Shown piece after piece: positions 4,546 to 44,358 of a stretch of DNA of 44,358 bases. The notes below the pieces were generated by a model. The model was not told the DNA's origin and ran no database searches. It was given only the letters and a program-made list of their open reading frames with translations. Position numbers and translations under genes: made by a program. The stretch is from a virus. The stretch's first letter is position 1. Each line of letters begins with the position of its first letter. The stretch lies in IMG/VR virus record IMGVR_UViG_3300036791_000441, positions 1 through 44,358 of that record; one strand, 5' to 3'.

Positions 4546-7062
4546 ATGTTCACGCTCGATGCCGTGCAACTGTTCGACATGGGCTTTGGCCCGCATCTCG
4601 TCCCCGTCACGCCGCCCGAAGCCGCCCCCATCTCGCTTACTTCGAAGCTGACCCGCAAGTCGCTCGGCAAGGCACCGGGACGCTATACCGTGGGCGGCTG
4701 GACCGGCGTCGATCTCACCGATGCGCGCTTCCGTTGTCATAGTTACGACACGGCAAAGCTCTGGCAGGACTGGCACGCCAATGTCGGGCTCGTGGTGGGC
4801 GACGGCTTCGCCGTCATCGACAACGACCAGGGCAAGGAGTTCTCGGACATTCTAAGTGAGGCGTTCCGGGCGCTCGGCATGCAGCCGCTTCGCCGCTACG
4901 TCGCCGATCCCAAGCATCTCCGAGATGCCTTTGTCTTTCGAGTGAACAAGAACGTAGCCAACTGCAACCTGAAGTTCCGCAACGGTGTCTCCGAAGCCGA
5001 AATCCAGCTCCTGGGGCACGACAAGCAGGCCGTCATTTTTGGCACGCATCCCGGGACCAAGTGCTCCTACGTGTGGGATAGGCGCATCTTCAAGCTCGAA
5101 GAGATACCATTGCTGGATGAGGCCAAGCTCGTCGAGCTGCTGCGCCTGATTGTCGAGTTGGGAGATCAACAAGGTTGGCAACTTCAAGGGAACCAGAATC
5201 TCGAAGGCCTGGCTGCGGGGCACAAGCCCGCGGTGTCTTCGGTGCCTCCGAACAGTTCACCCCCGCAAAATCCCAAGGTGATCCAAACCGCCATCCAGGA
5301 CGCCTCCCGCCTCCTGGCCTCGCTTCCCAATCGCGACGTGCCGCCGGGCGAGACGAGCAACGGCATCGACTTGTGGCTCGACGATTACGACAACTGGATC
5401 AGCGTCGCCTACGCGCTTGCCGCGCATCTCGGCCCGGTCGCCAACACGCTCCAGGCCGAGATGCTCTGGTTGGAATGGGCCTTCGGGCGGGCCCAGACAC
5501 AAGACCCCGAGGGCGTCTGGCGCAGCGTCTTGCAGCAGCCTCTCAAGTATGGGCCGCTGGGATTGCTCAAGCTGCTCAAGGGCATCCCCGGTGTCTTGCC
5601 GCCGACCGGCTTCCCCGGCCTCGATCCCGATGACCCGATCCTGCTGACCCCGATCTGGAACCACATCAAGCAGACCTATGCCCACTACACCCCGGACGGG
5701 CGCATCCTGAACACCGTGACCGGCGCCCTGCTGCCTCGGCAGTCCTTCGCCGATCTCTTTGCGCCAAACATTGGGACCTTGCTGCAAGAGCTGCAAATCC
5801 CCTCGCCGAAGAAGATCGCCCGCCAGCTCGCCGCCGACATCTTCATGGCGCGGCCCGACAAGCCCGTGGTGCATGGCTTGACCTACGCTCCCGGCGACAT
5901 GCGTATCTCGCGGGACGGGGTGTTCAACTACTGGAACGAGACGACCATTCCCCGCCCTTCGGTCCCGGTGCCGCCCGGGCAAGTCAAGGTCTGGCTGGAT
6001 CACGTCGACCTGGTGCTCGGCAAGGACGAGCGCGAGCAGTTCGTGAAGTGGTGCGCCTACGTGGCCCAGTTCCCGGGGAAAAAGCCCAATTGGCACTACA
6101 TCGTGATGAGCGACCAGGGGCTCGGCAAAGACACCATGCTCGGGCCGATCAAGCTGGCCGTCGGCGCCCATAACTATCGCAACGAGCAAGTCGATTACTT
6201 GGCCGAGAACCAGTTCAACGATTACCTGAAATCCAAGCTTCTGATCATTTCTGAAACCGGGCAGTCGCGAAACAACTTCGTGTCTCGGCGGATCGAGCTG
6301 CGCCTCAACCAGCTCCTCGCCTCGCCGCCGGAAACGCTGGCCGTCAACCTCAAGAACCGGGATCGCTTCTGGATACCCAACCGGCACGCCATCATTCTCT
6401 TCTCGAACGAGGCGAGGCCGCTGCATCTCGACCGGGGCCAGCGGCGCCTCTACGTCATCAACCGCATGGGGGTGAAGCGCAAGCCCGAAGCTTACTACGA
6501 GAGCTTCAACCAGTGGCTCGATCTCAATGGTCCTTTGGTGGCGTCCTACCTCCTGACCCTGCCTTTGACGCCCGCCGAGAAGCGCAAGTTCTCGGGAGGC
6601 ACGGCTCCCGACAGCGCCGACAAGGCCTTGCTCGAACAACTCAGCGTCGAGGCCCATCTCGACGAGCTGGAGCAGCTCATTGCCGACACGCAAGCCGGTG
6701 TCGGCGGCATGGCGCCTCTCGCCACCATCGACGAGATCGTCAGCCACCTGAGCGCCAGGAACCCGCGCGACCGCAGTGGCTTGAGCGGCCAGAAGGTGCG
6801 CGGCTGGCTGCTCGACATGGAACGCCGCAAGAAAGGCGTCGGCAGGGTTCGCAAGGACCCCACTCACCCGGGCGGCGTCGGCGTCGTCAGTCGCGGCGGC
6901 AAGGGCGGCAGGCTTTGGCATCTGGTGCCCGACTACAAGGGGCATGCCTGGAAAGACTTACGGGACAGTGAGTTGATCGCCATCTGGGAAGGCCAGAAGC
7001 TCCCGCCGCGCCGTGGCAAGGCCCTGTTTCCCGACACTAAAGACCTAGATGAAAAGATTTGA
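4546..7062 (+). CDS. Bifunctional primase-polymerase / DUF5906-type helicase
   Basis: An 838-residue two-part replication protein. The N-terminal part (about residues 1-200) looks like a prim-pol domain, with GLVVGDGFAVIDNDQGKEF near residue 80 giving the acidic metal-site cluster. The C-terminal part is a superfamily 3/D5-like helicase: Walker A SDQGLGKDTML near 521, Walker B-like LLIISETG near 565 and a sensor motif, IILFSNEARPL, near 615. The GKD form of Walker A is common in the DUF5906 helicases. It should prime synthesis and unwind the fork for the upstream polymerase. The RBS GGGGAGGA sits just before ATG 4546. Residues 700-838 are less conserved and may bind DNA or partners. Helicase part confident; prim-pol part likely. 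Confidence 0.88.
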   Translation: MFTLDAVQLFDMGFGPHLVPVTPPEAAPISLTSKLTRKSLGKAPGRYTVGGWTGVDLTDARFRCHSYDTAKLWQDWHANVGLVVGDGFAVIDNDQGKEFSDILSEAFRALGMQPLRRYVADPKHLRDAFVFRVNKNVANCNLKFRNGVSEAEIQLLGHDKQAVIFGTHPGTKCSYVWDRRIFKLEEIPLLDEAKLVELLRLIVELGDQQGWQLQGNQNLEGLAAGHKPAVSSVPPNSSPPQNPKVIQTAIQDASRLLASLPNRDVPPGETSNGIDLWLDDYDNWISVAYALAAHLGPVANTLQAEMLWLEWAFGRAQTQDPEGVWRSVLQQPLKYGPLGLLKLLKGIPGVLPPTGFPGLDPDDPILLTPIWNHIKQTYAHYTPDGRILNTVTGALLPRQSFADLFAPNIGTLLQELQIPSPKKIARQLAADIFMARPDKPVVHGLTYAPGDMRISRDGVFNYWNETTIPRPSVPVPPGQVKVWLDHVDLVLGKDEREQFVKWCAYVAQFPGKKPNWHYIVMSDQGLGKDTMLGPIKLAVGAHNYRNEQVDYLAENQFNDYLKSKLLIISETGQSRNNFVSRRIELRLNQLLASPPETLAVNLKNRDRFWIPNRHAIILFSNEARPLHLDRGQRRLYVINRMGVKRKPEAYYESFNQWLDLNGPLVASYLLTLPLTPAEKRKFSGGTAPDSADKALLEQLSVEAHLDELEQLIADTQAGVGGMAPLATIDEIVSHLSARNPRDRSGLSGQKVRGWLLDMERRKKGVGRVRKDPTHPGGVGVVSRGGKGGRLWHLVPDYKGHAWKDLRDSELIAIWEGQKLPPRRGKALFPDTKDLDEKI

Positions 7063-38984: not shown

Positions 38985-39281
38985 CTTCTCCCTGGCTTGC
39001 TTGGGACACTAAAGCCGAGAGGCCGAGGAGACTGGCCGAGACACGCGGCCAAAGCAAGGGGGGCCGGGCCGGTCCTTTGGCATACGTCTTGCAATAAAGT
39101 ATCCCTGCCGTTTGCTTCCGCAGTCCAATTAGGTTTTCTTAGCGTCTCGACGTATCTGAACCCCTCCCTAAAGACAGCGTGCGACCGGACATCTCGATCA
39201 AGGACAGAAGGACCGCGCCCGCCCCTGTGCACGGCCTTTGAAGCTGGGAATCAGGTCCCGGCCCGACGGACTTAATCCCGG

Positions 39282-39315
39282 ACTTCAGCCGACGGACGAA
39301 ACTTCAGCCGACGGA
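39282..39315. repeat. 15-base direct repeat, 19-base period
   Basis: ACTTCAGCCGACGGA occurs at 39282-39296 and again at 39301-39315, separated by four bases, in the non-coding gap. Two direct copies about two helical turns apart suggest an operator or binding site, but no regulator is assigned. Confidence 0.6.
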
Positions 39316-39400
39316 GAATTTTCTCCAGGGACCGGGCCCGGGCCACGGACGCACGCGCAGGCACCCCCGGGGGCGGACACGCGGGCCTGCCCGCGCGCGA

Positions 39401-39428
39401 GCGCCCGCGCGCCCATGTGCGCGGGCGC
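39401..39428 (-). terminator. GC-rich hairpin after the small terminase-like gene
   Basis: GCGCCCGCGC (39401-39410) pairs with GCGCGGGCGC (39419-39428), ten pairs and an eight-base loop, two bases after the minus-strand stop at 39431. No U-tract. The surrounding 39,340-39,440 is alternating C/G-rich and could also adopt other shapes. Confidence 0.45.
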
Positions 39429-39430
39429 GC

Positions 39431-39715
39431 CTACGCGCGCGAGGGTGTCTCCGTGTCTTTGCCAGCTAAAGACACCAGCGCCGAATCTAGTTCTTCCGAA
39501 GTCATTTCCGAGGGGACCGGCGCGCCGTTCGAGGCGCCTTGACGCAATGCTCCCGAGGCCTCCAACAAGGTCCTGGCCGCTTGCGCCCGAGCCGAAGCCG
39601 GTGCTCCCGCCTCCCTGCAAATCGCCTCCAACGTTTGCCTAGCAAGTTCGTCGCCCGAGGCGCCCGAGGCCTCGCGCCTCGATGCCTTCGCCCGGAAAGG
39701 CCTCACGGCGCGCAT
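39431..39715 (-). CDS. Candidate small terminase subunit
   Basis: A 94-residue protein starting at ATG 39715, overlapping the previous gene by 13 bases. The core ELARQTLEAICREAGAPAS, then ARAQAARTLLEASGALRQG, then SEMTSEELDSALVSLAG matches the helix pattern I know from small terminases of phages of alphaproteobacteria, where apaSaRvqAArtLLE is followed by an E-L-D helix. If so, it recognises the packaging site and recruits the large terminase. A perfect hairpin (39453-39460 with 39468-39475), built from GTGTCTTT, lies in its last codons. It is separated from the large terminase by eight genes, which is unusual but seen in some podoviruses. Alternative: an unrelated small helical protein. Confidence 0.45.
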   Translation of the reverse strand: MRAVRPFRAKASRREASGASGDELARQTLEAICREAGAPASARAQAARTLLEASGALRQGASNGAPVPSEMTSEELDSALVSLAGKDTETPSRA

Positions 39716-40026
39716 TGGAAGCCCGCTGGCGCCTCTCGACGCGCTCGCCCTTGTCGCCCTAGCTTGAAAACAAACGGGCGCTGGCGAGCCTCGTAGCGCG
39801 ACCCGAGATGGAAGCGGCAAAGCCCGCAATGCTTGAAGGCGAAGCGCTTGCACCCGTCGACCTTGCAACGCTTCTGCGTGCCCTTGCCGAAGCCGTGAAG
39901 GGCGCCAGCGGCAAGGAACGCCAGCGGCGCGCGCTTCTGGCCTCCCCAAGCATGTTTGCGCGGCCTCGTCGCCCTCTTGCGCGACGGGCGCCAGTCTTCG
40001 CGGGTGAACTGCGTTTCGCTGGCCAT
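39703..40026 (-). CDS. Small basic Cys/His protein
   Basis: A 107-residue, very basic protein. Residues 53-75 hold a Cys/His cluster, RCKVDGCKRFAFKHCGLC followed by RFHLG: four Cys and a His, like the small CRFHGG zinc-type proteins of phages and alphaproteobacteria. ATG 40026 lacks a strong ribosome site. It is the first gene of the minus-strand block and is divergent from the AAA+ gene, sharing a 153-base control region. It may bind DNA near the terminase. Function inferred from composition. Confidence 0.55.
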   Translation of the reverse strand: MASETQFTREDWRPSRKRATRPRKHAWGGQKRAPLAFLAAGALHGFGKGTQKRCKVDGCKRFAFKHCGLCRFHLGSRYEARQRPFVFKLGRQGRARREAPAGFQCAP

Positions 40027-40085
40027 GGCGGCGCCGAGGGAAGCCCGAGGGGAACTTTAAGTCCAGGGCAAACGTGCCTTTCGTT

Positions 40086-40139
40086 TTGACACGTAGTGTC
40101 TTTCCATGGTAAGTGTCTTTTGGCGCTAGACGTGTCGTT
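40086..40139 (+). promoter_or_regulatory. Promoter and repeated operator-like sites before the AAA+ gene
   Basis: TTGACA lies at 40086-40091 and TAAGTG at 40110-40115 (spacer 18, weak -10, preceded by TGG). Three copies of a similar word follow or overlap it: AGTGTCTTT at 40095-40103, AGTGTCTTT at 40112-40120 and CGTGTCGTT at 40131-40139, spaced 17 and 19 bases. The first copy also forms a GACAC-GTA-GTGTC hairpin with the -35 box. This layout fits repressor sites over a promoter. The gap is shared with the divergent minus gene at 40026. Confidence 0.5.
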
Positions 40140-40179
40140 TAGTTGCCATGAGACCTAACCCATTGAAAAGGAACGACAA

Positions 40180-41706
40180 ATGTCCAAGTTTTCGCACATC
40201 CCCATGCCTCGCGCTTTCCGCGACGAGATCAAGAGCGAACTCACTGCCATTCCCGGGTGGGAGCAATATCGCAAGGCGCAAGCCAAGAAACCCGCCTTTT
40301 GGGGCCGCGACGAGATTTGCGCCGCGTGCGAGGCATTAGGCCTTGATCTAGCTGACAGGCACGCGCTGTGGATTGCCCGAGGCGGCGCCCGGGACGACGA
40401 CGAAGAAGGGACGGCGCCAGCGCCGAGCGCCGAGGCCTCGTCGCCCGAGGCGGCGCCGAGCGAAAGCTTCGAAGGGCGCGACGCGGCGACGCTCATTGCC
40501 GAAGCGCTGGCGCCCGCTGGCGTGCATATGACGCCATGGCTGCAAGCCGAGTTGCCGAAACTCTTGGCACCCATGGCGCAAGCCGCCGTCACGGCGCCGC
40601 GCGAGCGCGTCGTGGAGCGCGTCGTGATCAAGAGCGCGCCGAGCGCTGGCGCCTCGACGCCGCCCGTCGTGAACGTCACGCATTGGAAGCCGGCTCGCGA
40701 GATTTTCGGCATGCGGCGCAACGCGGGCGGCGCGGCTTTGAAGCACGCGCTCGAAAACGCGCTTCTGCCAGTGTGCGATTTCGCTGGCGCGCCAAGCCTT
40801 GATCCAGACTACGCTTGGCAAAACGAGATCGTGGCGCAATTCGCCGCCATGGACAGCGAAGGCTTGAACGTCTGGACCTTCGGCGCCGCTGGCACGGGCA
40901 AGACGGAAGCCGCGATGCAATGGGCGGCGCGCATGCGGCGCCCGTTCTTCCGCATCGCCATGGACAGGACGACCGAGCCCGTCGACCTGATTGGCCAGAT
41001 GGTCTTGGCCAAGGGCGGTGGCATGGAATGGCAAGACGGCAAGCTTACGAGGGCGTTTCGCACGCCTTATGCCGTGATCCTGATTGACGAACCGACACTC
41101 TTGCGCAGCGGCACGCTTGCCGTGTTCCAAACCGCCCTCGACACGCGCAAGCTTTGGCTTGGCACTGGCGAGGTGGTCGAGGCGGCGCAAGGCATTTTCG
41201 TGATCGCGGCTGACAATACGGCTGGCGTTGGCGACGACAGCGGGCGCTATGTCGACACGAGTGCTGTGAACGTGGCGTTCCTCGATCGCTTCGCCTTGCG
41301 CATCGCCTTCGATTATCTCGACGCCGACAGCGAGACGAAAATGCTGGCGCATCGCGCCCGCCTTTCCGAGAAGGCGGCGCGCATCATGGTCGAGTATGCC
41401 AGCGCCACGCGCAAGGAAGCCAGCGCCGGGACCTTGACCATTGGCGTGACGCCTCGTCGCCTCATTGCTTGGGCGAAAGCCGTTCGCGCTGGCGTTGGCT
41501 CGCAAGTCGCCTTCTTGTCGAGTGTGATCCAGGGCAGCGCGCCCGAGGATCGCGAGGCGCTGATCATGCTCGAAACCACGTCCCTTAAGTCACGCCATGG
41601 CGAGATTGACGCCATCGCGCGAGGCCTCGTCGCGCCAGCGGCGCCGAGCGTCGAGGGCGAGGGCGAGCCGAGCGCGACCGGCATCAAGTTCCCCGAGGGC
41701 GAATGA
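40180..41706 (+). CDS. MoxR/CobS-like AAA+ ATPase
   Basis: A 508-residue AAA+ protein. The first 70 residues may be a small helical domain, then a Pro/Ala/Glu linker. The ATPase has Walker A GAAGTGKT at 235-242, Walker B VILIDEP at 299-305, sensor-like AADNT near 345 and the arginine finger region FLDRF near 368. These match the MoxR/CobS group that works with VWA-domain partners. RBS AAAAGGAA precedes ATG 40180. The VWA partner gene follows, 82 bases on. No cobalamin-pathway gene (CobN) is visible, so cobalt insertion is unlikely; a remodelling or quality-control role for the pair is more likely. Family firm; role inferred. Confidence 0.88.
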   Translation: MSKFSHIPMPRAFRDEIKSELTAIPGWEQYRKAQAKKPAFWGRDEICAACEALGLDLADRHALWIARGGARDDDEEGTAPAPSAEASSPEAAPSESFEGRDAATLIAEALAPAGVHMTPWLQAELPKLLAPMAQAAVTAPRERVVERVVIKSAPSAGASTPPVVNVTHWKPAREIFGMRRNAGGAALKHALENALLPVCDFAGAPSLDPDYAWQNEIVAQFAAMDSEGLNVWTFGAAGTGKTEAAMQWAARMRRPFFRIAMDRTTEPVDLIGQMVLAKGGGMEWQDGKLTRAFRTPYAVILIDEPTLLRSGTLAVFQTALDTRKLWLGTGEVVEAAQGIFVIAADNTAGVGDDSGRYVDTSAVNVAFLDRFALRIAFDYLDADSETKMLAHRARLSEKAARIMVEYASATRKEASAGTLTIGVTPRRLIAWAKAVRAGVGSQVAFLSSVIQGSAPEDREALIMLETTSLKSRHGEIDAIARGLVAPAAPSVEGEGEPSATGIKFPEGE

Positions 41707-41788
41707 CACTTCGAAGGGCGGCGCCGAGCGCGCCGCCTCACGAAGCGCCAATGCTTCAAACCGTAACCTGAACCAAGGAACCAACACC

Positions 41789-43792
41789 ATGTCTTCGAAG
41801 ATGATTTTACCGATGGAAATTTACGAGGCGGCGCGCGAGACGTGCCTTCGCCTTTACGTGACCAATGGCGGCAACGCTCACGACCTTTGGAAAGTGCAAC
41901 CCTATCCCGGGACAGCCGCCATCTCTTGCGAGACGAATTACAACGGGCGCCGCACCTGGACGCTCGCCATGCCGGCGCTGCCGCTCGACGTGCGCGTGCC
42001 TCGCTGGCAAGCGGACTTGATCGCGGCTTACACGGTTCACGAACTCTTGCACGCGCTTTGGTCGAATTGGGACACGGTGGCGCAATCCAAGCGCGAAGGC
42101 CTTGGCATGCTCACCAATGCGCTTGAGGATTGCCGCATCGAAGCCAAGGCCAGCGCTGGCGCCCTTCGCCTCGTTTCCGAGGCACGCCGCTTGCTGCAAA
42201 TTCTCAACGCGCACATCTACCAGCGCGCCGCCGAAAAGCCCGCCTTCAACATTGCCGACGAGAACCAATTCGCCTTCATCCTGACGCTGGTAATTTTCAG
42301 CGAAAAGCTTGGCTACGTTTCCGCCTTCCCGGGCGATTGGCGCAAGCGCGTCGCGAAGCACCTGATCCCGGTTTTCGAGCATGCGCTGGCACGCTTCCCG
42401 GCGCTGGCCTCGACCGAAGACGCGTTGCAACTCGCCCGGGAGCTTCGCGACATGGCGAAGGCGACGAAGCCCGAGCCGAAGGCGCCGAGCGCTGGCGAAG
42501 GCAAGCCCGAGACGCCGAAGGGCGACGAAGGCGACGACGACGAGGCCAGCGAAGGCGCTGGCGCTGGCGAAGGCGACGACGACGAGGCCAGCGAAGGCGA
42601 CGACGAGGGCGAAGGCGCTGGCGAAGGCGAAGGCGACGACGACGAGGCCAGCGAAGACGACGACGAGGGCGAAGGCGACGACGAGGGCGAAGGCGACGAC
42701 GCTCAGCAAGGCGCCTCGCATGGCTCAGGAAGCCCGTTCGGCGACAAGGGCGACGACGACGAGAACGACGACGGCGAAGCCGCTGGCGAGGCCTCTAATC
42801 GCGACGGCGAGACAGGCAAAGCCGGGAAGGGCGGCGACGGCGCTGGCCTCTCGAATGACGCAAGCCAAGGCGACGACGAGGCGCCCTCGCCCGATCTTTC
42901 CGACAAGGGGCAGGACTACAGCGAAGCCAATCTAGACGAGTTGTCGACAGCGCAAGGCATGCAAGAGGCGCCCTTCGCTGGCGCCGTCTTGAATGCCAGC
43001 GCGCCGCGCGTCGAGGATTGCACGCGGCGCGGCAACGCGAAGCAAATGGGCGCCGTCATCTCGACGCCAGCGAAGCTTCGCCGCCACGTCACCAGCGCCG
43101 TCAAGGCGCCCGAGCGCGTCGGCAACGAACGCTACCAGACAAGCGGGCGCCTCGACACGCGCAATGTTGCTGGCCTCGCCAGCGGCGCCGAGACGGTGTT
43201 TCGCAAGCGCGTCGAAGACGAAGGGCGGGAAGCCGCCGTCACCTTGCTGATCGACGTGTCGTCTTCGATGGAAGGCGAGCGCATCGACGCGGCGCGCGCC
43301 ATGGCGCTGCACATGGGCGACGCGCTCAAAGCCGCTGGCGTGCGCTTCGAGATCGCAACTTTCCGTCACGCTAGTGGGGACCGCGCCAGCATGTCGTTTC
43401 CGAAACCGATGAAGGCGACGTGGAACGACACGACGCGAAGCTTCGCCGCTGGCATCAGGGCGCAAGGCGGGACCGTGATGCTTCCGGCAATCAAGCATTG
43501 CGCCGAGCAATTGCTTGGCGTGCGCGCCGTGTCACGGCGAATTCTGATCGTCTTGACGGACGGCCTCGACAGCTTCGACAGCCGCGCCAACGAAATACAG
43601 TGCAAGGCGCTGGCGGCGAAGGGCGTCGAGGTTCTCGGCATTGGCTTGATGCTGACGGGGCGCGAGCTTCGCGACATGGCGACGACGTTCGCCAAGAACG
43701 TCGTTTACGTGAACGATTGCGCGGCGCTGGCGACGACCGGCCTCGCGCATCTCGTCAAGCAACTCGACAAAGCCGCGCCGAAGGGAGCTTGA
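41789..43792 (+). CDS. HExxH plus VWA-domain protein (CobT-like / DUF2201-like)
   Basis: A 667-residue protein. The start chosen is ATG 41789 with AAGGA upstream; the frame extends to 41597 but that part overlaps the ATPase gene. Residues 1-230 hold a metallopeptidase-like domain with HELLH at 84-88 (HExxH zinc motif) and a DCRIEAKA helix near 115 that may supply the third ligand. Residues about 240-375 are an extreme acidic linker of Asp, Glu, Gly and Ala repeats. The VWA domain (about 480-667) has MIDAS-type DVSSSM near 489 and TDGLDSF near 590. It should bind the ATPase through the VWA domain, and the N-terminal domain may cut or bind a target. Family likely; catalytic activity not shown. 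Confidence 0.82.
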   Translation: MSSKMILPMEIYEAARETCLRLYVTNGGNAHDLWKVQPYPGTAAISCETNYNGRRTWTLAMPALPLDVRVPRWQADLIAAYTVHELLHALWSNWDTVAQSKREGLGMLTNALEDCRIEAKASAGALRLVSEARRLLQILNAHIYQRAAEKPAFNIADENQFAFILTLVIFSEKLGYVSAFPGDWRKRVAKHLIPVFEHALARFPALASTEDALQLARELRDMAKATKPEPKAPSAGEGKPETPKGDEGDDDEASEGAGAGEGDDDEASEGDDEGEGAGEGEGDDDEASEDDDEGEGDDEGEGDDAQQGASHGSGSPFGDKGDDDENDDGEAAGEASNRDGETGKAGKGGDGAGLSNDASQGDDEAPSPDLSDKGQDYSEANLDELSTAQGMQEAPFAGAVLNASAPRVEDCTRRGNAKQMGAVISTPAKLRRHVTSAVKAPERVGNERYQTSGRLDTRNVAGLASGAETVFRKRVEDEGREAAVTLLIDVSSSMEGERIDAARAMALHMGDALKAAGVRFEIATFRHASGDRASMSFPKPMKATWNDTTRSFAAGIRAQGGTVMLPAIKHCAEQLLGVRAVSRRILIVLTDGLDSFDSRANEIQCKALAAKGVEVLGIGLMLTGRELRDMATTFAKNVVYVNDCAALATTGLAHLVKQLDKAAPKGA

Positions 43793-43795
43793 GCC

Positions 43796-43918
43796 ATGGT
43801 CGAATTGATCCTGTTTCCCCTCGTCGTCGCCGCCATGGCTTGCGCCGTGTCAAAGGCGACGAGGCGCCGCCACGAAACCCGCTGGCGCGCCATGGAAGCC
43901 CGCTGGCGCCGGTACTAA
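43796..43918 (+). CDS. Membrane miniprotein, 40 residues
   Basis: ATG 43796 lies three bases after the VWA stop with AAGGGAG upstream. The product has one span (LILFPLVVAAMACAVS) and a basic tail containing two copies of a short motif (RHETRWRAMEARWRR). The tight spacing implies one operon with the ATPase and VWA genes, which could place their action at the membrane. Too small for a family call. Confidence 0.55.
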   Translation: MVELILFPLVVAAMACAVSKATRRRHETRWRAMEARWRRY

Positions 43919-43949
43919 TCCCGAGGGGGATGCTTAGGCCTCGACAATC

Positions 43950-43983
43950 CGAAGGGCGCCAGCGGTTCCGCTGGCGCCCTTCG
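43950..43983 (+). terminator. Strong hairpin after the AAA+/VWA operon
   Basis: CGAAGGGCGCCAGCG (43950-43964) pairs perfectly with CGCTGGCGCCCTTCG (43969-43983), fifteen pairs with a GTTC loop. It lies 31 bases after the stop of the miniprotein. The following CGCTTTGAGCTTG has only a short T run. Most likely the operon's terminator. Confidence 0.75.
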
Positions 43984-44094
43984 CGCTTTGAGCTTGTGGG
44001 GCCGAAGCGGCGCCTTGATCCTGCCAAGCCCGGGCGCCGAGGGCGACGGGCGAAAGGCGCCAAGGGCGCCTCGCTTAGGTAGCGTAGCGTTAAG

Positions 44095-44187
44095 CGCGTT
44101 TCCAGCCTCGCCAGCGGCTTTTCCGGTCTGGCGGCTAGGGCGACACCTGGGAGCATGCCTTTGGCCGCTGGCGAGGCTGGAAACGCG
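44095..44187. repeat. Perfect 24-base inverted repeat with 45-base spacer
   Basis: The arm 44095-44118 (CGCGTTTCCAGCCTCG... to ...AGCGGC) is the exact reverse complement of 44164-44187. The 45-base interior (44119-44163) contains no gene. The 44,000-44,358 stretch has no supported coding region. The structure could be a cruciform-forming site, a transcript-end hairpin, an origin or a remnant of element ends; no transposase is nearby. Confidence 0.8.
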
Positions 44188-44227
44188 ATCTAGGGGCCAT
44201 CAAACCTGGTATGAGGCCTCCATGGGA

Positions 44228-44285
44228 GCGCCCGAGGCCTCGACGCGGCGCCCGAGGCGCCCGAGGCCTCGACACGGCGCCCGGA
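44228..44285. repeat. Two tandem 29-base units of CCGAGGCCTCG-type sequence
   Basis: Unit 1 (44228-44256) and unit 2 (44257-44285) agree at all but two of 29 positions. Each carries GCGCCCGAGGCCTCGAC. The same words recur in the coding part of the right-hand region. A further perfect hairpin follows: GCCGGCA (44327-44333) with TGCCGGC (44338-44344). No gene seen here. Confidence 0.65.
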
Positions 44286-44358
44286 TCGGCGCGAGCCAAT
44301 CGACACAAGCCCGAGCCAATTGCCACGCCGGCAACTTTGCCGGCGGCGCCCGGCAAAC

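Follow-up and report, generated by a model that had tools for sequence, protein, structure and literature searches.

The right end of the 44,358-nucleotide virus record IMGVR_UViG_3300036791_000441 (the window) carries on the + strand a gene for a CobS-like AAA+ ATPase, a gene for a CobT-like protein, and an open reading frame (ORF) for a transmembrane (TM) protein of 40 amino acids. We propose, with a probability of about 0.5, that the first two proteins would form an ATP-driven remodelling protease of the phage replication arm that acts on DNA-bound or replication/recombination complexes and is not a cobaltochelatase, and that the TM miniprotein would be a clade-specific accessory. The domain architecture, the conserved motifs and the placement of the pair ahead of the replication genes are read directly from the sequence.

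Relatives of the CobT-like gene were found by alignment-based scans on nine IMG/VR contigs (L005-L013, among which L005 and L006 look like near-duplicates and L013 is partial), and further contigs carried the ATPase. Alignments were needed for these scans because the CobT-like protein as a single query matched nothing in IMG/VR. No relatives were found in a bacterial genome scan with alignment A3. The CobT-like proteins of eight related phages have an overall identity of 49-55% to the protein of the window, and the cobS-cobT pair was present in all relatives in which the region was covered.

The domain matches and the alignment confirmed the gene order given by the initial annotation, an AAA+ gene followed by a gene that joins an HExxH domain to a von Willebrand-type (VWA) domain with a metal-ion-dependent adhesion site (MIDAS) through an acidic linker. 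The ATPase (508 amino acids, 40180-41706, + strand) matches AAA_5 (2.5e-17) and CbbQ_C (1.7e-7) and has an N-terminal extension of about 200 residues. Its Walker A (GAAGTGKT, residues 235-242) and Walker B (ILIDEP, residues 300-305) motifs have key residues that are invariant in a seven-member alignment, and with these motifs and a CbbQ_C-type C-terminal domain it qualifies as a MoxR-family AAA+ protein. The closest solved structures are midasin (4.8e-33) and CobS (1.7e-28), and the structures of NorQ and CbbQ also match. The CobT-like protein (667 amino acids, 41789-43792, + strand), whose best start is the ATG at 41789 that is common to the relatives, has a zincin-like N-terminal domain, an acidic low-complexity linker (42476-42928) and a C-terminal VWA domain (43226-43771). 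Aspartate and glutamate make up 38% of residues 230-380 and 11% of the rest of the protein, and the linker varies among the relatives in both length and sequence. The MIDAS residues (D489-x-S491-x-S493, T562 and D591) are invariant in all eight family members. An adjacent CobS/CbbQ-type AAA+ protein and a VWA protein with an intact MIDAS make the two genes a cobST-like pair.

The N-terminal domain (residues 1-225, 41789-42463), which AlphaFold2 modelled with a mean pLDDT of 84.9, contains the predicted zinc-binding and catalytic motif HELLH (residues 84-88, 42038-42052) and, further on, the E113-D114 pair (42125-42130) as the candidate third zinc ligand. The segments HELLHALW and NALED.RIE that surround these residues show no variation across the eight members. 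The domain therefore has the gluzincin combination of an HExxH motif and a downstream acidic third ligand, where the metal-binding acidic residue is a candidate from sequence. Foldseek found nothing below 0.001 in the PDB for the domain model. With a second-look aligner, most of the first 20 VIA matches were HExxH peptidases; these matches included DUF885 (Z 6.5), other peptidase-like entries, DPP III, BlaR1, ERAP1 and the minigluzincins jannalysin and selecase (Z 5.2-5.4 over about 103 residues). Because the Z values are modest, the zincin case rests on motif and fold jointly, and by both the modelled domain looks like a gluzincin. The significant named matches in BFVD were phage CobT/VWFA proteins and an uncharacterised HHTV-2 protein. 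Wss1 stood at rank 21, and together with SprT-like repair proteases it provides, at such low ranks, a lead only. Two other approaches were set aside: the model of the full-length protein was too poor for use (pLDDT 52), and a sequence search of the PDB with the N-terminal domain returned only glutathione transferases, which we judged to be chance matches. The invariant HExxH...E residues, the zincin-like predicted fold and the intact AAA+ and MIDAS residues lend support to the proteolysis or remodelling function that had been suggested for these genes.

Among 21 further CobT-like proteins that were read, whether from phages or plasmids or divergent, 17 have an intact HExxH, namely those of phages Mae-Yong1326-1, CRP-810, ICP2, Woes, ReqiDocB7, RHEph10, SSU5, T5S1 and syn9 (gp150), a Salmonella genomic island protein, plasmid proteins of Marinobacter, E. 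coli and Aeromonas, and four divergent genome-encoded proteins (L110, L111, L113 and L114). In contrast, the N-terminal domains of canonical cobaltochelatase CobTs, drawn from Pseudomonadota genomes, lack the motif in 30 of 30 cases. The sole canonical protein with an HExxH string (L089) has it about 180 residues before the conserved VEQARVE, probably upstream of the true start. A simple pattern found the segment RG.AD..A in 21 of the 30 canonical CobTs, and by eye this segment replaces the HExxH helix. Profile comparison with hhalign matched the N-terminal domains of the mobile-element proteins to canonical CobT (3.8e-9) and to the window family (2.3e-13). Since the direct comparison of the window family with canonical CobT was not significant, the two are tied only through the other mobile-element members.

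When 42 VWA domains were placed in a tree, the canonical CobTs fell into a single supported clade (98/97) that joins a second HExxH-less clade (100/99), and both are set among HExxH-bearing proteins, with the window family as sister to Mae-Yong1326-1 (99/95). A loss of the zinc site in the line of canonical CobT is the simpler reading of this sequence tree and no proof, given that its branches are long and no root was set. The pattern suggests that the cobaltochelatase CobT may carry a dead protease domain. A Burkholderia gene that was considered as a route to canonical CobT turned out to belong to the second HExxH-less clade, joined to canonical CobT; this clade consists of L105-L109 and the Burkholderia proteins L036-L044. 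Near the Burkholderia plasmid copy is a gene that by eye resembles sulfoacetaldehyde acetyltransferase.

Phage cobST pairs have been documented as B12 genes (PMC8651126, PMC9503304, PMC11288001), cobS belongs to the core gene set of T4-like cyanophages (PMC3037559), and the function of the phage genes has been called uncertain (PMC11288001). If phage CobST joined a host CobN as a cobaltochelatase, the pair would be auxiliary metabolic genes that raise cobalamin for nucleotide synthesis, as proposed in PMC8651126 and PMC9503304. The relationship of the pair to CobS and CobT agrees with such a role, which we nevertheless regard as quite improbable. The ATPase of the window scores 78.8 bits against TIGR01650 (CobS; equivalog cut-off 558.55) and the CobT-like protein scores 16.7 bits against TIGR01651 (CobT; cut-off 759.05), far below both cut-offs, while the canonical alphaproteobacterial CobT L064 scores 870 bits against TIGR01651. 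The CobT N-terminal family PF06213 gave no match over its cut-off for the window protein, and it was matched by the CRP-810 and Salmonella island proteins. A search for CobN (PF02514) in the window and 12 further phage records with the pair found none, though the host might supply one. The canonical CobTs as a single supported clade without HExxH, and the position of the pair with replication genes, also speak against a chelatase. Furthermore, related pairs occur in phages of E. coli, a species that is unable to make the corrin ring; one of these phages, PhiR41_1, a relative of SSU5 and pHXH-2, has a K-12 strain as its listed host.

The gene order of the phage family bears directly on the remodelling protease that we favour. 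In the window, the left arm on the + strand encodes the C-terminus of a helicase, an exonuclease, a single-stranded DNA-binding protein, a DNA polymerase and a primase, and the - strand encodes the endolysin, major head protein, portal, terminase and tail fibres. The helicase gene is already open at the start of the window, and in the relatives the helicase lies downstream of cobT, with the matching part 2.7-5.4 kb past cobT where it was found (L007 excepted). The window is thus an incomplete genome that breaks just after the miniprotein gene; its two ends would be neighbours across a gap. Where covered, the relatives keep the order tail fibres, small divergent cysteine-motif gene, cobS, cobT, further genes, helicase, g401, exo, ssb and polA. 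This constant order makes the pair a stable part of the phage family, ahead of the replication genes and divergent from the structural arm. We considered a chimeric contig and rejected it, since synteny is kept and, for almost all genes that were compared on either arm, the window stands furthest from the other members.

A similar setting was seen in other lineages. The pair of the window family lies between the divergent tail arm and helicase-exo-ssb-polA; elsewhere, replication genes are adjacent to or within about 2 kb of the pair in ICP2 (primase, with helicase and polymerase beyond), in nickie, RHEph10, BUCTxx99 and SSU5 (polymerase III alpha), in T5S1 (polymerase), and in syn9 (sliding clamp and loader, with the recombination genes gp46/gp47 on the opposite side). 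In the Salmonella island and the Marinobacter and Aeromonas plasmids, the pair lies in recombinase/exonuclease clusters. This context suggests a DNA-bound or replisome target, and it also bears on virion assembly or maturation, in which an AAA+/VWA chaperone with a peptidase would process structural proteins. Such a role has been proposed for jumbo phages (Iyer et al. 2021, PMC7824862) and finds an analogy in the ATV tail proteins p618/p892, a precedent cited in PMC7911831. We consider it doubtful for the pair described here: in the window family the genes precede those for replication and point away from the structural arm, they stand beside polymerase, primase or clamp genes in several other lineages, and related proteins are encoded on conjugative plasmids, which have no virion.

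The position of the pair at the head of its arm, and the presence of the pair on conjugative plasmids and an island, would also fit host takeover or anti-defence, by which the machine, recruited to the membrane by the TM miniprotein, would unfold or cut a host protein that is bound to DNA or serves in defence. The pair is present in every covered relative, unlike the typically patchy anti-defence genes. PADLOC, which does not test anti-defence, gave no defence match: the VWA protein and the miniprotein had no match, and the ATPase had only weak AAA matches (E 0.009 or worse). Literature searches that linked cobST-like pairs to defence or anti-defence found no paper. Host takeover is an unlikely role in our view. 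A defence role as offered by the initial annotation is unsupported: neither the VWA protein nor the miniprotein is matched by a PADLOC family, and the genes stand first in the replication arm of the phage itself.

Several observations weigh against the remodelling protease. The zincin Z values are at most 6.5, a range in which a shared fold is uncertain, and by the aligner's own caution a Z below 8 can reflect a common arrangement. Catalysis is not a universal property of these proteins, since nickie and BUCTxx99 carry a degenerate HExxH and L112 and L115 have none. The link of the miniprotein to the pair is one of position. The primase/polymerase of CRP-810 lies about 9 kb from the pair, and the neighbours in Woes and ReqiDocB7 are mostly unannotated. 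As the lineages were hand-picked from hit lists, are in several cases interrelated and have no null model, the replication neighbourhood amounts to a pattern without statistical weight. The loss of the motif in canonical CobT, nickie and BUCTxx99, with the rest of the protein kept, could mean that the N-terminal domain is a non-catalytic scaffold and the pair a pure chaperone; we hold this to be highly improbable, since HExxH and the ED pair are invariant within the family and HExxH is retained across long branches elsewhere.

If the pair is a remodelling protease, the MoxR/CobS-type ATPase would form the ring typical of MoxR proteins, and the VWA/MIDAS domain would hold the target or dock on that ring, on the model of midasin, CobST and NorQ-type pairs. 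The long acidic linker would tether the peptidase and let it reach a pulled or unfolded target, which the N-terminal gluzincin-type metallopeptidase, with zinc bound, would cut. During infection the target would probably be a DNA-bound protein or one attached to replication/recombination complexes, with early expression of the genes expected, and the TM miniprotein may anchor the complex to the membrane or regulate it there.

Several known systems are close to this proposed machine. Midasin/Rea1, which resembles the ATPase of the window in its AAA+ sequence, combines an AAA ring, an acidic linker and a MIDAS domain that pulls on substrates. Unlike the pair of the window, it is one giant eukaryotic chain that acts on ribosome precursors, and to our knowledge it has no zincin domain. 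RavA-ViaA, CbbQ-CbbO and NorQ-NorD likewise are remodelling pairs of a MoxR-type AAA+ protein and a VWA partner; they differ in having cellular metabolic targets, and we know of no HExxH N-terminal domain in them. Cobaltochelatase CobS/CobT (CobT chain 9uka_G) shares the AAA+ protein and the layout of N-terminal domain, acidic linker and VWA domain with the window pair, while its CobT lacks HExxH and the phage proteins fall far below the TIGR01650/TIGR01651 cut-offs.

The initial annotation held that the three-gene cassette may be undescribed; for the two-gene core this is not supported, because phage cobST is documented (PMC8651126, PMC11288001) and jumbo phages have a reported pair of MoxR and metallopeptidase-vWA proteins for which virion assembly was proposed (Iyer et al. 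2021, PMC7824862). By its description, the group 2.2 jumbo-phage pair (PMC7824862) is like that of the window, an AAA+ protein plus an N-terminal metallopeptidase fused to vWA. Unlike those jumbo phages, the present family has genomes of about 45-50 kb, with the pair ahead of the replication genes and a small TM ORF behind it. The cobST of Mae-Yong1326-1, CRP-810, ICP2, SSU5 and T4-like cyanophages has the same two-gene architecture and, where read, the N-domain motif, but is annotated as B12 genes, varies in gene order by lineage and has no TM ORF seen directly after cobT. What we add is a survey that sets the zinc motif beside canonical CobT, the proximity of replication genes to the pair in different lineages, and the TM ORF that recurs behind it. 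Should the zinc motif be the sign of an active protease, the reading of phage cobS/cobT as B12 auxiliary genes would have to be revised. A broader and more tentative idea is that phage and plasmid 'cobST', including the cyanophage core cobS and its 'peptidase' neighbour, might be one AAA+/zincin-VWA replication-remodelling family from which cobaltochelatase CobT derived by loss of the zinc site, and in which the window clade gained a membrane miniprotein subunit.

In phage syn9 (L126), gp150 (4796-6919) is a protein near CobS, listed without function, that has HEVGH...NVLEDARIE and a VWA motif. From its sequence it is the probable cyanophage CobT partner. Its intact motif contrasts with the view in PMC8651126 that the 'peptidase' annotation of cyanophage cobT is mistaken.

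The third gene (43796-43918, + strand) starts 3 nucleotides after the cobT stop, as initially annotated, and encodes 40 amino acids with one TM segment near the N-terminus and a strongly basic C-terminal tail. Positional analogues exist in the relatives. A small TM ORF starts within -10 to +100 nucleotides of the cobT stop in six of eight members, compared with 1.5% of positions in the same DNA (binomial 3e-10, relatedness ignored). In L012 one gene separates cobT from a TM protein, and the TM ORF of L010 lies 581 nucleotides on. The position of the miniprotein is conserved in the window clade; that it is part of the machine is a guess. Sequence likeness was seen only between L005/L006 and L007, and the miniproteins are otherwise mostly unconserved. 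The sister phage Mae-Yong1326-1 has a 29-amino-acid TM ORF one gene further on, and no TM ORF directly beside the pair was seen in the other lineages read. The search for the three-gene neighbourhood therefore gave a mixed answer to the proposal of a three-gene cassette, which holds for position in most of the clade, with sequences that are mostly not shared and no such ORF seen directly after cobT in other lineages.

Upstream of cobS is a divergent gene of 107 amino acids (39703-40026, - strand) with a zinc-finger-like cysteine motif, found at the same place in L005, L007, L008, L009, L011, L012 and L015. Its N-terminus carries a conserved WRPS-type motif, a cysteine/histidine motif is also present, and the product is a candidate for a small DNA-binding protein that regulates the shared promoter region. 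A putative promoter, TTGACA-18-TAAGTG (40086-40115, + strand), was recognised by eye at a position aligned in the relatives, and a 9-nucleotide direct repeat, AGTGTCTTT (40095-40103 and 40112-40120), overlaps it. A promoter region with repeated sites had been claimed here; the sequence shows a single direct repeat within a by-eye -35/-10-like element common to the relatives, and a consensus promoter scan upstream of cobS called none. The 'strong terminator' did not hold up: beyond the miniprotein gene we found a perfect 16-bp hairpin (43950-43983, + strand) without a T-run, possibly an end-of-operon structure, that a terminator scan did not call.

The region was also said to be compositionally distinct, which is false for G+C and true for word and codon usage. 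A G+C island was rejected because G+C is similar to that of the rest of the contig, and at this similar G+C the word and codon usage of 39241-44358 is sharply unlike that of the rest. CGCTGGCG/CGCCAGCG occurs at 5.7 per kb in 40180-44358 and at 0.31 per kb in 1-39000, with 0.2-0.9 per kb in the loci of the relatives; GAGGCCTC differs about 24-fold in frequency between the right-end region and the rest of the contig, and GGC makes up 84% of glycine codons in that region compared with 59% elsewhere. Near the contig end is a perfect 24-bp inverted repeat with a 45-nucleotide spacer (44095-44118 and 44164-44187). Between cobT and the helicase, L010 (3125-3222) and L012 (5025-5060) contain alternating purine-pyrimidine (CG/CA) runs of up to 64 nucleotides.

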